Assembly: GCA_019239975.1 (NCBI GenBank)
Contig: JAFAZE010000070.1
Coordinates: 62,001 to 126,000 of the forward strand
DNA from: Streptosporangiaceae bacterium
GTDB taxonomy: Bacteria; Actinomycetota; Actinomycetes; Streptosporangiales; Streptosporangiaceae
Length of the DNA stretch: 64,000 nucleotides
Reading direction: 5' to 3'
The notes below the pieces were generated by a model. The model did not search any database, was not told the origin of the DNA, and was given only the letters and a program-made list of their open reading frames with translations. Of the stretch, positions 20,238 to 44,356 are shown piece by piece. A program made the translations under genes and the position numbers. The first letter of the stretch is position 1. Each line of letters begins with the position of its first letter.

Positions 20238-22658
20238 GTGTTCGACTACGTGATCGTGGGCGGCGGCAGCGCGGGGTGCGTGCTGGCCGCCCGGCTCAGC
20301 GAGGATCCGGGCGTCAAGGTGCTGCTCCTGGAGGCGGGGCCGGCCGCAGGCGCCGATGAGATAAAGATCCCCGCCGCGATGAGCCGCCTGTACCAGAGCG
20401 GTTACGACTGGAACTACCGCACGGTCCCGCAGCGGCACGCGGACAACCGCCCGGTCTACTGGCCGCGCGGCCGGGTCCTCGGCGGCTCCTCGGCGATCAA
20501 CGCGATGATCTACATCAGGGGAAACCGGTCGGACTATGACGGGTGGCGCGACGAGTTCGGCTGCGCGGGATGGGGATACCGGGACCTGCTGCCGTACTTC
20601 CGCCGCGCCGAGGACAACAGCCGCGGGGCGAGCGTCTATCACGGACAGGGTGGGCCACTGTCCGTTCGGGATCCCCGGTACAGATCCGAGCACAGCAGAA
20701 GCTTCGTCGCGGCCGCGGCCAGATGCGGCGCTCCCGAAAACCACGATTTCAACGGGCCGAAGCAGGACGGCGTCGGGTTCTATCAGGTCACGCAGCGCGA
20801 CGGCCAGCGGTGGAGCGCGGCGGACGCCTACCTGGCAAAGCCCAGGGAGAACCTGACGATACGTACCGGCGCGCTGGTGACCGGCCTGGTCATCGAGGGC
20901 GGCCGTGCCGCGGGCGTCACCTACACCTGCCGCGGCGCCGAGGAGACCGCCCGCGCCGGGGCCGAGGTCATCCTCGCCGCGGGAGCGATCAACACCCCGC
21001 AGCTGCTGATGCTGTCCGGCATCGGCCCCGCGGACGAGTTGCGCGAGGCCGGCATCTTCGTGATCGTCGACAACCCGGCGGTCGGCGCGAACCTGATCGA
21101 TCATCCGGTGGTTCCCGTCATCTGGTCCACGCCCGGCGCGCGCGGCCTGTGGGAGAAGACGGGCATGGCCGGGCTCGCGCGCTGGCGGCTGACCCACCGC
21201 GGCCCGCTGACCTCCAACGTCGCCGAAGCCGGCGGGTTCGCCAGGTCCGGCTCCGGCCTGCACGCGCCGGACCTGCAATGGCACGTGCTCCCCGTCGCCT
21301 ACGAGAACCAGGGCCTCGTCGACCCGGCGCGGCGCGCCATGTCGGTGCTCGTCACGCTGGTCGACGTGGGCAGCAGGGGCAGGATCCGGCTCAGCTCGCG
21401 GGATCCGCGGCACCAGCCGCTGATCGACCCCGCGTACCTTTCGGACTCGCGCGACCTGGACCGGCTGGCCATCGGCGTGCGGATGGCCAGGGAGTTCGCG
21501 GCCGCGGCGCCGCTGTCCAAGCTGTGCGCGGGCGAGATCCAGCCGGGTGACGCGGTGCGCACCGACAGCGAGCTGCGCGATTTCATCAGGGCCAGCGTGG
21601 TCACCCTCTACCACCCCGTGGGCACCTGCGCGATGGGCGGAAACTCGCGGGTGGCGGCCAGCCGGCAGGCCAGCGTCGTCGATCCCGAGCTCCGGGTGCG
21701 CGGCATCGACGGGCTGCGGGTGGCCGACGCGTCCGTCATGCCGACCGTGCCCCGAGGCAACACCAACGCGCCGGTGATCGCGATCGCCGAGCGAGCCGCG
21801 GACCTAATCATCGGCCGCGCCCCGCTCGCCCCCGCGGACCCCGCCGACCCCGCCGACGCCCTGGCCATCGCCGCCAACGCTGTGTTATCCGGGGGGTCGC
21901 CCCGTTGTTATCCGGGGGGACACCCCCCGGAACCCCCCGCCCGCCGCGGTCCTCGCCGTATCATCGCGCGGCCGGAGGGCCGTCGGCCCTCGCGGACCGC
22001 GCGATCGCGGAATGTGAGCCGCGATCGCGGCTCACTCCGCGCCACCCGCCGTAGTCCGCCGCGGTCTCGCCGTCAAGCGGCTCAGCGCTTATACAATCTT
22101 CCGTGCCGGACGGTGATCAGGCGGACCAGGCGGTCCATGTCGCGGTCGGTGCGCTGGAACGACGTGGTGACGATCAGCGGCTTCATCCGCTGCCGCGTGA
22201 TCGACTTGGCCCGCGCGAACGCGCGCAGCCCGTCCGCGCCGTGGATCCGGCCGAACCCCGACTCGCCCGACCCGCCGAACGGCAGCGCGGGCACCGCGGC
22301 GAACGCGATCACCGAGTTCACCGACGTCATCCCCGCGCGCAGCGCCCGGGCGGCGCGCAGCGCGGCGCCGCGCCGCTTGCCGGTGAACAGGGCGGATCCC
22401 AGGGCGTACGGCGAGGCGTTGGCCAGCCGCACGCCCTCGTCGAGCGACCGCACCGGGGTGACCGCCACCACCGGGCCGAACGTCTCCTCCTGGATCGCCG
22501 CGCTCTCCTCCGGCACGTCCACGAGGACGACCGGGTCGACGTACGGCGCGCGCACCGAGTCCAGCCCCCCGACGGCGGCGCGCCCGCCGCGGGCCACCGC
22601 GTCGGCCAGGTGCCGCTCGACCACGTCGATCTGCCGGGGCAGGGTCATGGGCCCGTAG
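20238..22658 (+). CDS. GMC-family FAD oxidoreductase with lost stop codon
   Basis: FAD-dependent alcohol/choline dehydrogenase-like enzyme; substrate unknown. GTG 20238 follows GGAGG. The dinucleotide-binding motif VIVGGGSAGCVLAARLSE, GMC signature GRVLGGSSAINAMIYIRG, catalytic histidine in LYHPVGTCAMGG and the final RGNTNAPVIAIAERAADLII make a complete domain of about 532 residues ending near 21835. No stop follows. The frame stays open through a composite repeat (21884-22085) and then 577 nt antisense across the aldehyde dehydrogenase gene to a TAG at 22656. The extra 270 or so residues are arginine-rich and look non-native. Confidence 0.88.
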   Translation: MFDYVIVGGGSAGCVLAARLSEDPGVKVLLLEAGPAAGADEIKIPAAMSRLYQSGYDWNYRTVPQRHADNRPVYWPRGRVLGGSSAINAMIYIRGNRSDYDGWRDEFGCAGWGYRDLLPYFRRAEDNSRGASVYHGQGGPLSVRDPRYRSEHSRSFVAAAARCGAPENHDFNGPKQDGVGFYQVTQRDGQRWSAADAYLAKPRENLTIRTGALVTGLVIEGGRAAGVTYTCRGAEETARAGAEVILAAGAINTPQLLMLSGIGPADELREAGIFVIVDNPAVGANLIDHPVVPVIWSTPGARGLWEKTGMAGLARWRLTHRGPLTSNVAEAGGFARSGSGLHAPDLQWHVLPVAYENQGLVDPARRAMSVLVTLVDVGSRGRIRLSSRDPRHQPLIDPAYLSDSRDLDRLAIGVRMAREFAAAAPLSKLCAGEIQPGDAVRTDSELRDFIRASVVTLYHPVGTCAMGGNSRVAASRQASVVDPELRVRGIDGLRVADASVMPTVPRGNTNAPVIAIAERAADLIIGRAPLAPADPADPADALAIAANAVLSGGSPRCYPGGHPPEPPARRGPRRIIARPEGRRPSRTARSRNVSRDRGSLRATRRSPPRSRRQAAQRLYNLPCRTVIRRTRRSMSRSVRWNDVVTISGFIRCRVIDLARANARSPSAPWIRPNPDSPDPPNGSAGTAANAITEFTDVIPARSARAARSAAPRRLPVNRADPRAYGEALASRTPSSSDRTGVTATTGPNVSSWIAALSSGTSTRTTGSTYGARTESSPPTAARPPRATASARCRSTTSICRGRVMGP
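21884..22085 (+). repeat. Composite dispersed repeat at the GMC/ALDH junction
   Basis: Consists of two GTTATCCGGGGGG blocks, a G-run palindrome (21912-21940), a 43-nt palindromic core (21963-22005) starting ATCGCGCGGCCGGAGGGCC, and a perfect 22-bp palindrome at 22014-22035 centred on CGCGATCGCG. The region from the G-run palindrome to about 22075 is matched, inverted, at 43141-43300. Confidence 0.85.
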
Positions 22659-23653
22659 GAGGCGCCGGAATCGTCGCCTGGGCGCAACGCCGCGACCCGT
22701 TCGGTAAGTTTCTCCATGAACTTCTGGTAGGCCGGTTCACAGACGTAAACCCGCTCCACGCCGACGCACGTCTGGCCCGCGTTGGACAGCGCGCCCCAGG
22801 CGGCGGCTTCGGCGGCCGCGTCCAGGTCCGCGTCGGCGTCGACGAGCATGGCGTCCTTGCCGCCGCATTCGGCGAGGACGGGCGTGAGCGTGTCCGCCGC
22901 CGCGGCCATCACCTTGCGGCCCGTCGCCGCCGAGCCGGTGAACGCGAGCTTGTCCACGCCGATGCGGGCCAGCGCCTCGCCGGTCGACCCGTCGCCGGTG
23001 ACGAGCTGCAGCACGTCGCGCGCGGCCGTGTCGCCGAACACTTCGCCCAGCACCTCGCCGAACGACCGCACCAGCCACTGGCCGGTGGCCGGCGTCAGCT
23101 CGCTGGGCTTGAACACCACGGCGTTGCCCGCCGCCAGCGCGTACGCGATCGACCCCATCGGGGTGAACACCGGGTAGTTCCACGGCCCGATCACGCCGAC
23201 CACGCCCAGCGGCACGTACCCGACCGTGGCGGCCTGGTTGATCATCGCGAGCCCGCTGGGCACCGAGCGCGGCCGCAGCACCCGGTGCGCGTGCTTCGCC
23301 GCCCAGTCGATGTGCAGCACGGTGATGACGACCTCGAGCGTCGCGTCATCCAGCGGCTTGCCGGTCTCGTCGTGCACGAGCCGCGCGAGCCGGCCCATGT
23401 AGCGGGTCAGGTGGGACTTCCAGGCGAGCAGCCGCAGCCGCCGGTCCCGCCAGCTCAGACCCGCCCACCAGGCGGCCGCCTCGCGGGCGCGGGCGACGGC
23501 GGCGGCCACGTCCCGCTCGCCCTGTACCGGGAAGGTGGCGATGACCTCGCCGGTCGCCGGGTTCACCGTGTCGAATGTCTCCGCGCCCGGGGAAGACGGC
23601 CACTGCGGCCAGGGGTCCGCGACCCCGTCCCGGGCAGATGCGCGACCTGCCAT
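22082..23653 (-). CDS. Aldehyde dehydrogenase, succinate-semialdehyde dehydrogenase-like
   Basis: NAD(P)-dependent oxidation of an aldehyde to an acid. ATG 23653 (MAGRASARDGVADPWPQWP) is a reasonable start; the open frame upstream has shadow composition. Motifs: the cofactor loop FTGSAATGRKV, the general-base region LAECGGKDAM (the usual ELGGK becomes ECGGK), and catalytic cysteine in NAGQTCVGVERVYV. The 523-residue length and the VADPWPQW...DTVNPATGEVIATFPV start resemble GabD2-type enzymes; substrate is not proven. Convergent with, and overlapped by, the GMC frame. Confidence 0.9.
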   Translation of the reverse strand: MAGRASARDGVADPWPQWPSSPGAETFDTVNPATGEVIATFPVQGERDVAAAVARAREAAAWWAGLSWRDRRLRLLAWKSHLTRYMGRLARLVHDETGKPLDDATLEVVITVLHIDWAAKHAHRVLRPRSVPSGLAMINQAATVGYVPLGVVGVIGPWNYPVFTPMGSIAYALAAGNAVVFKPSELTPATGQWLVRSFGEVLGEVFGDTAARDVLQLVTGDGSTGEALARIGVDKLAFTGSAATGRKVMAAAADTLTPVLAECGGKDAMLVDADADLDAAAEAAAWGALSNAGQTCVGVERVYVCEPAYQKFMEKLTERVAALRPGDDSGASYGPMTLPRQIDVVERHLADAVARGGRAAVGGLDSVRAPYVDPVVLVDVPEESAAIQEETFGPVVAVTPVRSLDEGVRLANASPYALGSALFTGKRRGAALRAARALRAGMTSVNSVIAFAAVPALPFGGSGESGFGRIHGADGLRAFARAKSITRQRMKPLIVTTSFQRTDRDMDRLVRLITVRHGRLYKR

Positions 23654-23728
23654 GGGGTCAGTAAACCATCGCGCGCCCCCCGAAGCTACTGTGTGGTAAA
23701 CATCCCCGCTTCCGAGGGAGTGCTGCCC

Positions 23729-36615: not shown

Positions 36616-37659
36616 ATGGGCGCCGGCCCGCCGGCGCTCGTGGAAAGGGCGCGCGGCGGCGATCTGCGGGCGCTCGCGCGGGTGATCTCGCTCATCGAGA
36701 ACGGGGGACCGCACCTTCGTTCGGTGATCAAGGAGCTGGCGCCGCTGGCCTCCGGCGCGCGGACGATCGGGCTGACCGGCGCGCCCGGCGCGGGCAAGTC
36801 CACCGTGACCGGGGCGCTGGTGGCGGCGTTCCGGGACCGGGGTGAGCGGGTCGGCGTGCTCGCGGTGGACCCCACGTCGCCGTTCTCCGGGGGCGCGCTG
36901 CTCGGCGACCGGGTGCGTATGCAGGACCACGCGACCGACCCCGGGGTGTTCATCAGGTCGATGGCCAGCCGCGGCCACCTGGGCGGGCTGGCCGCCGCCG
37001 CGCCGCAGGCGATCCGGGCGCTGGACGCCGCCGGCTTCGGCGTGATCCTGGTCGAGACCGTCGGCGTGGGGCAGGCGGAGGTCGAGGTCGCGTCGATGGC
37101 GGACTCGACGGCGGTCCTCGTCGTGCCCGGCATGGGCGACTCCGTGCAGGCGGCCAAGGCCGGCCTGCTGGAGGTGGCCGACGTGCTCGTGGTGAACAAG
37201 GCGGACCGGCCGGAGACCCAGCAGGCCGTCCGCGACCTGCGGTCCATGGTGGCGCTGGCCGATCTTGATCCGGGGGGACGATCCCCCGGAGCCCCCCGGC
37301 CAGCGTGGAAGCCGCCGATCGTGACGACGGTGGCGACGGCCGGCGATGGCATCGGCGAGCTCGTCCGGCAGCTTGACCGGCACTGGGACTGGCTGGCCGC
37401 TTCCGGCGAGCGGGACCGCCGCCGCGCCGGGCGGGCGCGGGACGAGGTGCTGGCGCTGGCGTCCGGCGCGGTGGAAGCCCGGCTGGCGGCCGCGCCTGGC
37501 CTCGGCGAGCTCGCGGCCAGGGTGGCGGACGGCAGGCTCGGACCCTATGAGGCCGCGGATGAGCTGCTGGCCGGCGTCGGCTTGCCTCCTTTGTTATGCC
37601 GAACGAGCGGTGGCTGCTCCGGTGCCGCCCGCCTCGGGCCCCGGGGCGCGGCGAAGTGA
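36616..37659 (+). CDS. meaB: MeaB-type GTPase, acyl-CoA mutase chaperone
   Basis: G3E GTPase that loads and protects B12 in methylmalonyl-CoA-type mutases. Walker A GAPGAGKST, Walker B-like VETVGVGQAEVEVA and NKAD specificity motif (VVNKADRPETQQ). ATG 36616 gives the usual helix start (ALVERARGGDLRALARVISL); GTG 36565 is also preceded by a good site and would add 17 residues. The GC-palindrome element at 37270-37299 is inserted in frame (DPGGRSPGAPRPAW) between ALADL and KPPIVTTVATAGDGI. The 3' end runs into an inverted repeat and may be altered after AGVGL. Confidence 0.93.
   Translation: MGAGPPALVERARGGDLRALARVISLIENGGPHLRSVIKELAPLASGARTIGLTGAPGAGKSTVTGALVAAFRDRGERVGVLAVDPTSPFSGGALLGDRVRMQDHATDPGVFIRSMASRGHLGGLAAAAPQAIRALDAAGFGVILVETVGVGQAEVEVASMADSTAVLVVPGMGDSVQAAKAGLLEVADVLVVNKADRPETQQAVRDLRSMVALADLDPGGRSPGAPRPAWKPPIVTTVATAGDGIGELVRQLDRHWDWLAASGERDRRRAGRARDEVLALASGAVEARLAAAPGLGELAARVADGRLGPYEAADELLAGVGLPPLLCRTSGGCSGAARLGPRGAAK
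37270..37299 (+). repeat. GC-palindrome family element inside meaB
   Basis: 30 nt of the form CCGGGGGGACGATCCCCC-GGAGCCCCCCGG, nearly identical to the inverted copy at 43270-43300 and related to 21912-21940 and the thrB copies. Confidence 0.85.
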
Positions 37660-43140: not shown

Positions 43141-43300
43141 ACAACGCGGCCATTCAGCGTACGGCGAGCACCGCAGCGGGCTACGGCGGCTCACACAGCG
43201 ATCGCGCGGCTCGCGAGGGCCTACGGCCCTCCGGCCGCGCGATTCTACGGCGGGAACCGCAGCGGGCAACCGGGGGGCTCCGGGGGGTCGTCCCCCCCGG
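43141..43300 (-). repeat. Inverted copy of the composite dispersed repeat
   Basis: Matches 21912-22075 in reverse: palindromic core 43201-43243, flanked by GGCTCACACAGCG and GCCGTAG-like text on one side and by the G-run palindrome (43270-43300) on the other. It sits in the spacer between the divergent vapB and thioredoxin genes. Two CCCCCCCGGGCTAGCA-type units follow at 43292-43328. Confidence 0.85.
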
Positions 43301-43333
43301 GCTAGCACTCTCCCCCCGGGCTAGCATTGAGCT

Positions 43334-44356
43334 ATGCAGCAGCCGCGGGATTTCTCCCTTTACGGTGCCGTCGACCTGGGCGCGCGGCAGGCCGCCGCGC
43401 AGCGAAGGCAGCAGGCGGCCCAAGCGGCCCAGGCGGGCGAGTCGCACGCTGGGTCCGCCGCGGGCGACGGGACGGTCGTCGACGTCACCGAGGAAACGTT
43501 CAACACCGACGTGGTGGAGCGCTCACGAACCACGCCGGTGATCGTCGATCTGTGGGCGGACTGGTGCGGACCGTGTAAGCAGCTCAGCCCCGTGCTGGAG
43601 AAGCTGGCCGCCGATGCGGCGGGCGCCTGGGTCCTCGCCAAGGTGGACGTGGACGCCAACCCGCAGCTCGCCGCGCTGTTCCAGGCGCAGAGCATCCCCA
43701 TGGTGGTGGCGGTGATCGGCGGCCAGCTCGTGGACGGGTTCCTCGGGGCGCTGCCGGAGGCGCAGGTCCGGCAGTGGCTGACCCAGGTGCTCGCGGTGGC
43801 GGAGAAGCTCGGCGCCGGCTCGGGCCAGCCGGGTGGCGCCGCCGGCCAGGGCGCGGTGGACCAGGACGGCCAGGCCGAGGGCGCGGCGACCGCGCCAGGC
43901 GGCGCGCCGGGCGCCGGGGCCGCGGGCCCGGGCGGCGAGCAGCTGCCGCCGGCCTACGCCGAGGCGCGGCAGGCGATGGAGCGCGGCGACTTCGAGCGGG
44001 CCGCGAGCGTCCTCGAGAAGGCGCTCGCCGAGACTCCGGCGGACCCGGTCGTGAAGAGCTGGCTGGCTCAGGTGAACCTGCTGCGCCGGGTGGAATCCTG
44101 CGATCAGGCGGCCGCGCGCCGGGAGGCCGCCGAGCATCCCGAAGACGTCGGCGCGCAGCTCCGTGTCGCCGACATCGAGCTGGCGACGGGACGGCCCGAG
44201 GACGCGTTCGACCGCCTGCTCGGCGTGATCAGGCGGACCTCGGGCGAGGACAGGGAGCGGGCCCGGGCCCACCTTGTCGGCCTGTTCGACATCTTCCCGC
44301 CGCGCGATCCACAGGTCACCAGGGCGCGGTCGGCCCTCACCAGCCTCCTGTTCTGA
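43334..44356 (+). CDS. Thioredoxin-TPR protein (CnoX/YbbN type)
   Basis: 340 residues. A thioredoxin domain (about 45-155) carries the active site WADWCGPCKQLSPVL and the cis-proline in SIPMVVAV. After an Ala/Gly-rich linker (about 160-210), two or three TPR-like helix pairs follow (YAEARQAMERGDFERAASVL and beyond). In Escherichia coli the related CnoX combines holdase and thiol protection; the CGPC site here suggests active redox chemistry. Confidence 0.9.
   Translation: MQQPRDFSLYGAVDLGARQAAAQRRQQAAQAAQAGESHAGSAAGDGTVVDVTEETFNTDVVERSRTTPVIVDLWADWCGPCKQLSPVLEKLAADAAGAWVLAKVDVDANPQLAALFQAQSIPMVVAVIGGQLVDGFLGALPEAQVRQWLTQVLAVAEKLGAGSGQPGGAAGQGAVDQDGQAEGAATAPGGAPGAGAAGPGGEQLPPAYAEARQAMERGDFERAASVLEKALAETPADPVVKSWLAQVNLLRRVESCDQAAARREAAEHPEDVGAQLRVADIELATGRPEDAFDRLLGVIRRTSGEDRERARAHLVGLFDIFPPRDPQVTRARSALTSLLF

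Follow-up and report, generated by a model that had tools for sequence, protein, structure and literature searches.

A dispersed three-hairpin repeat at the stop codon of a GMC oxidoreductase gene and at other gene ends in a Streptosporangiaceae genome

Most descriptions of small bacterial repeats place them outside genes, and the literature on repeats that target stop codons was found to hold single cases or passing mentions alone. In Coxiella burnetii, QMITE2, a small stem-forming repeat of about 50 copies, lies in frame at the 3' end of enhC, where the 33 C-terminal amino acids come from the repeat and the stop codon follows just beyond it; the authors propose cleavage to a non-stop mRNA (PMC5896051). 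The repeat described here resembles QMITE2 in being a multi-copy, stem-forming repeat that supplies an in-frame C-terminal end. For QMITE2 one gene is described in the text consulted, whereas here the effect extends to most genes that face the repeat edge and to more than one genus. No direct repeats were found at the element here.

GTAG REPs are short GC palindromes present in many copies, and their termini often give flanking ORFs a TAG stop (PMC3733652). The element described here shares with them CGCCGTAG motifs and a CTAG-like edge. REPs are, however, single palindromes of 20-40 bp that lend stops, whereas the present element is a 160-nt composite that usually costs the gene its native stop. 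Rickettsia palindromic elements are translated in frame within conserved proteins (reviewed in PMC2229807). They lie inside genes, in contrast to the element here, which lies at the C-terminus and stop codon. Among small actinobacterial repeats tied to stop codons, the MIRUs of Mycobacterium tuberculosis were reportedly described by Supply and colleagues in 1997 as inserted at stop/start overlaps. MIRUs are tandem and less palindromic and reportedly keep the stops of the reading frames, whereas here native stops are lost.

The locus was found in a stretch of 64 kb (the window; G000:C175:62001-126000) of a draft MAG of 6.4 Mb in 176 contigs from a soil actinobacterium, in which a GMC oxidoreductase frame runs through a repeat and into the convergent aldehyde dehydrogenase gene. 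The GMC case is a known kind of event; what is new is a family-wide preference for gene ends, seen at most of the ends that the repeat faces. Our preferred reading, to which we assign a probability of about 0.8, is that a REP/MITE-like repeat lies across the GMC stop, that the edge of its family prefers gene stops, and that the long run-on is an accident of frame. If a repeat family has its edge on stop codons, it would generate new C-termini directly and would offer a case in which to study how cells handle the loss of stops, by way of tmRNA, RNase III cleavage or readthrough.

The end of the GMC oxidoreductase gene

The product of the frame contains the Pfam domains GMC_oxred_N (residues 2-291) and GMC_oxred_C (379-517, 517 being the last domain residue), and its H459 and N510 are invariant among eight orthologues; with both domains and the conserved C-terminal His and Asn it belongs to the GMC oxidoreductase class. 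The best match among named genomes was Trebonia kvetii, with 75% identity. Orthologues align as far as residue 532-533, which corresponds to position 21836 and bears out the claim of an earlier note on this DNA that the enzyme domain is complete by about 21835. Under a codon model trained on the 64-kb window the native part scored +0.30 per codon. Because the conserved C-terminal His and Asn are kept, the enzyme part may well work. An AlphaFold model of the 806-aa product, built from eight sequences, had a mean pLDDT of 32, too low for use.

Table 1. Positions of the features of the GMC-dehydrogenase locus and of the second repeat copy, numbered within the window
Feature	Positions	Strand	Remarks
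GMC frame, whole ORF	20238-22658	+	GTG start; 806 aa; stop TAG 22656-22658
GMC-family FAD oxidoreductase, native part	20238-21884	+	549 codons; conserved to residue 532-533
Run-on reading frame	21885-22655	+	257 codons, K/R-rich, not coding-like; then TAG 22656-22658
Three-hairpin repeat member	21884-22054	+	model match 21902-22054, preceded by an additional tandem 5' unit; BLASTN family; covariance model 152.6 bits
Hairpin 1 region	21884-21938	+	two tandem G-run units and the C-runs pairing with them
Hairpin 2	21962-22006	+	long GC stem; five pairs changed on both sides across the family
Hairpin 3	22006-22044	+	GTGAGCCGCGATCGCGGCTCAC palindrome inside a longer stem
Variable 3' tail	22045-22076	+	CGCCGTAG/CGCTGCGGT units; extends to within about 5 nt of the dehydrogenase stop; from the right-flank listing
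Antisense overlap, GMC frame with dehydrogenase gene	22082-22658	+	577 nt
Aldehyde dehydrogenase, convergent neighbour	22082-23654	-	Pfam Aldedh, E 3.5e-124; own stop intact, 22082-22084
Second repeat copy	43159-43311	-	covariance model 101.9 bits

The junction with the repeat lies at 21884/21885 (GCT GTG | TTA TCC GGG GGG), in agreement with the start at 21884 given previously. It falls 16 codons past the GMC domain, at the position of the native stop. The orthologues end 5-30 residues past the aligned domain, mostly 13-22, at a TAA, TAG or TGA of their own, and the long C-terminus is absent from all of them. The same convergent GMC-dehydrogenase pair was identified in ten relatives (eleven syntenic loci, equal to ten genomes at most, as L066 and L037 are apparently one locus in two collections), and there the dehydrogenase stop lies 21-170 nt, mostly 21-66 nt, beyond the GMC stop. 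In the window it lies about 200 nt from the start of the repeat. The short native ends of the relatives and this longer distance indicate that a repeat of about 150-190 nt has replaced the native 3' end of the GMC gene, as the earlier note had proposed, and the sequence from 21884 onwards belongs to a genome-wide family. Insertion, rather than another rearrangement, presumably placed it there. An exact empty site for this copy was not found, the nearest relatives being 75% identical in protein.

Structure and distribution of the repeat family

Members of the family consist of one or more G-run units, hairpins 1, 2 and 3, and a variable CGCCGTAG/CGCTGCGGT tail. The window copy, about 170 nt long, folded with -110.9 kcal/mol and a z-score of -5.4. 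Across 21 aligned copies, seven base pairs were changed on both sides, a number reached by none of 500 shuffles, and this compensatory signal was lost when the pairing partners were slid. The genome holds 69 BLASTN pieces of the repeat and 72 covariance-model matches, about 45 of them strong, and copies share near-identical stretches. No Rfam family matched the repeat above its gathering score, the only hit being a chance match with E 0.86. The left edge reads roughly GYTAxCCCGGGGGG and the right end is variable; no duplication was seen by eye, and a target rule exact to the base (T^GA or TA), sought across the copies, was not found, the edges being too variable.

Repeat matches with E below 1e-8 were present in four of 151 genomes sampled from the bacterial family, in three genera (G000; G012; G013 together with G089). 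With its many dispersed copies and conserved inverted repeats the family resembles REP/BIME elements. It differs from them in two respects. The Y1 transposase of RAYT type (Y1_Tnp, PF01797) that accompanies REPs was absent from G000, G012 and G013, genomes 90-93% complete, whereas control genomes were positive, and the search, which covered Y1 transposases, linked no transposase to the family. The repeat is also not confined to extragenic DNA, since its edge precedes any stop in 18 of 28 genes that face it.

Several minor features were observed among the copies. The second copy in the window has its hairpin-1 edge about 8 nt before the ATG that starts the plus-strand gene 43334-44356, and a short fragment resembling the hairpin-1 unit (BLASTN 88%) lies at 37268-37301. 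Tandem arrays of two to five short G-run units (GCTCTGCTGGCCCGGGGGG) precede hairpin 1 in L209, L216 and L219, which suggests local amplification of the unit.

Gene ends that face the repeat

Forty-eight copies in the same genome had a hairpin-1 (left) edge and called flanking genes. The neighbouring gene reads towards hairpin 1 in 28 of the 48, and away from it in 19 of the 47 with a called left neighbour. Eighteen of the 28 facing genes have no stop ahead of the repeat edge, and 21 either have a stop within 15 nt of the edge or enter the repeat in frame. The 18 genes run on for 0, 0, 0, 0, 4, 8, 19, 21, 32, 45, 45, 50, 51, 55, 61, 104, 257 and 272 codons; most find a stop within the repeat, 0-61 codons in. 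They include genes that, from general knowledge of such sequences, we take to be DnaJ, Crp, ArgR, Zur, HypE and FtsY, and the other names given below, beyond the two genes of the window, were assigned in the same way.

Comparison with orthologues placed several of these junctions at or near the native end. In three relatives DnaJ closes with FNGR-TGA, whereas this genome has FNGR|TTA at the repeat edge; Crp ends RAR-TGA or RAH-TGA in relatives and reads RAR|TTA here; and HypE keeps its native end PRIC, and the TAG that comes after it is the repeat edge itself. For ArgR, ABC-F and FtsY the junction lies within about one codon of the end of at least one orthologue, and the loss in HelD-like, Zur, NCS1 and nitroreductase-like genes ranges from a few residues to about a dozen or more. 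A CysRS-like gene (L168; G000:C14:14920-15077) is about 61 residues shorter than its relatives where the repeat begins and may have lost a C-terminal part.

On the hairpin-3 side, a gene without a stop before the element was found in 5 of 18 cases, two of which resemble gene-call errors. The asymmetry with the hairpin-1 side (18/28 vs 5/18; Fisher p = 0.03) is only moderate. In the diverged sister subfamily of G012 and G013 the edge is reached without a preceding stop by 11 of the 12 genes that face it; orthologues were compared for seven, and most of these lack about 2-16 native residues. The sister subfamily in G012 (L227-L244) has a T-rich edge (GCTGTGTTTTTCTGGGGGGTAGAAACCAACCCCCCAGACCCCCC) and at least 72 copies. 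Overwriting of gene ends is thus a habit of this repeat family, not a one-off, and ORF ends that adjoin such repeats should not be annotated as native.

Two explanations of the stop preference were weighed. Insertion may be random, with survivors confined to gaps and expendable last codons, so that selection alone creates the preference; this would replace only the targeting part of our reading, and we regard it as a serious contender that falls somewhat short of an even chance. The genes are densely packed, and other copies occupy wide gaps or sit near start codons. An insertion null was computed in which gaps, with lengths taken from one window, and the last 15-45 or 90 nt of genes were tolerated. 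At a tolerance of 90 nt the 18/28 of the genome itself is not significant alone (p = 0.10). At 15-45 nt, however, p was 3e-6 to 5e-3 for 18/28 and 7e-7 to 2e-4 for the 11/12 of the sister genomes, which were significant even at 90 nt (p = 0.003), and the DnaJ, Crp and HypE junctions lie exactly on the native stop. The exact junctions would favour some degree of targeting. It may be, though this is less likely than not, that the insertion mechanism itself seeks stops or 3' ends; in that event dozens of conserved genes, the named DnaJ, Crp, ArgR, Zur, FtsY, HypE and others, would have had their C-termini rewritten in at least two genera, giving extended proteins and possibly non-stop mRNAs.

It is less probable, and on balance doubtful, that the element is retained at gene ends as a working 3' end or transcription stop in place of the native one. 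Its three strong GC hairpins, their compensatory changes and its placement at 3' ends would suit such a role. No U-run follows the hairpins in the sequences inspected, however, the left neighbour often reads away from the copy, as counted above, and hairpins are equally expected of a mobile palindromic element.

An artefact, whether a base error that hides the native stop or a misjoin at the repeat, is very improbable: although the assembly is a draft, the family has near-identical stretches and a single substitution would turn the TTA at 21885 into TAA or TGA, the synteny in ten relatives shows that the join is right and rules out misassembly at this point, 18 of the 28 copies, and a second genome too, show the stop lost at this edge of the element, and a hidden stop would need to sit in unique sequence ahead of the hairpins. 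The earlier note had named such a base error near the edge as a refutation; an in-frame TTA at the element edge in four other genes makes this a weak objection.

The run-on tail and its overlap with the dehydrogenase gene

On the reading that we prefer, a non-autonomous, dispersed three-hairpin repeat would have come to lie across the GMC stop, with its hairpin-1 edge at the native stop position. The hairpin-1 edge of the family would preferentially coincide with the stop of whichever gene it meets or precede that stop by a few codons, and the repeat would provide the recipient with a different C-terminus and, in most frames, with a stop codon as well. Of the three frames of the consensus repeat two meet a stop, one at the very edge (CTAG) and one inside, and the third meets none. 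The GMC case is extreme because its frame crosses its own copy without a stop; the frame stays open across the 3' tail and, antisense, through the dehydrogenase gene to 22656. Messages that end or are cut in the hairpins would lack a stop and could be cleared by tmRNA, which is present in the genome. The GC hairpins presumably end or destabilise most transcripts, and the long protein would then be rare, or tmRNA would remove it as a non-stop product.

The frame is open up to the TAG and overlaps the dehydrogenase gene by 577 nt, both as first described. The same description credited the product with some 270 basic residues. The tail is indeed basic, but the count and wording needed correction: of about 257 residues past the repeat edge, 64 are K or R and 2 are D or E. 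The tail had a codon score of -0.80 per codon, compared with +0.30 in the enzyme part, and Pfam returned no match for 21840-22655. When the stops of the 56 called genes in the window were removed in simulation, 4 of them (7%) continued for at least 257 codons, as did 13% of arbitrary non-coding frames. With a chance of 7-15% for a run-on this long, its length is unremarkable at this GC content; what is notable is that the native stop is lost at the repeat edge. The equivalent antisense frame of the dehydrogenase gene is open for 151-195 codons in relatives (L067, L064, L066 and L037), where no gene enters it.

Given the non-coding score, the near-chance openness and the equally open frame in relatives, the predicted 257-residue tail is most likely accidental, a by-product of frame and GC content. 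The antisense overlap, likewise, presumably has no evolved role. Convergent genes can regulate each other through antisense RNA, and the frame is open and its predicted product strongly basic, but a selected C-terminal extension or antisense control of the dehydrogenase is scarcely credible given the codon score, the lack of any family match or orthologous counterpart, the unused open frame in relatives and a run-on length within chance. Long antisense run-ons in GC-rich genomes require no function, a point to be kept in mind in annotation.

The closest parallel to the GMC gene was an ABC-F-like gene (L164; G000:C141:22066-22221), which runs on for 272 codons into the next convergent gene.
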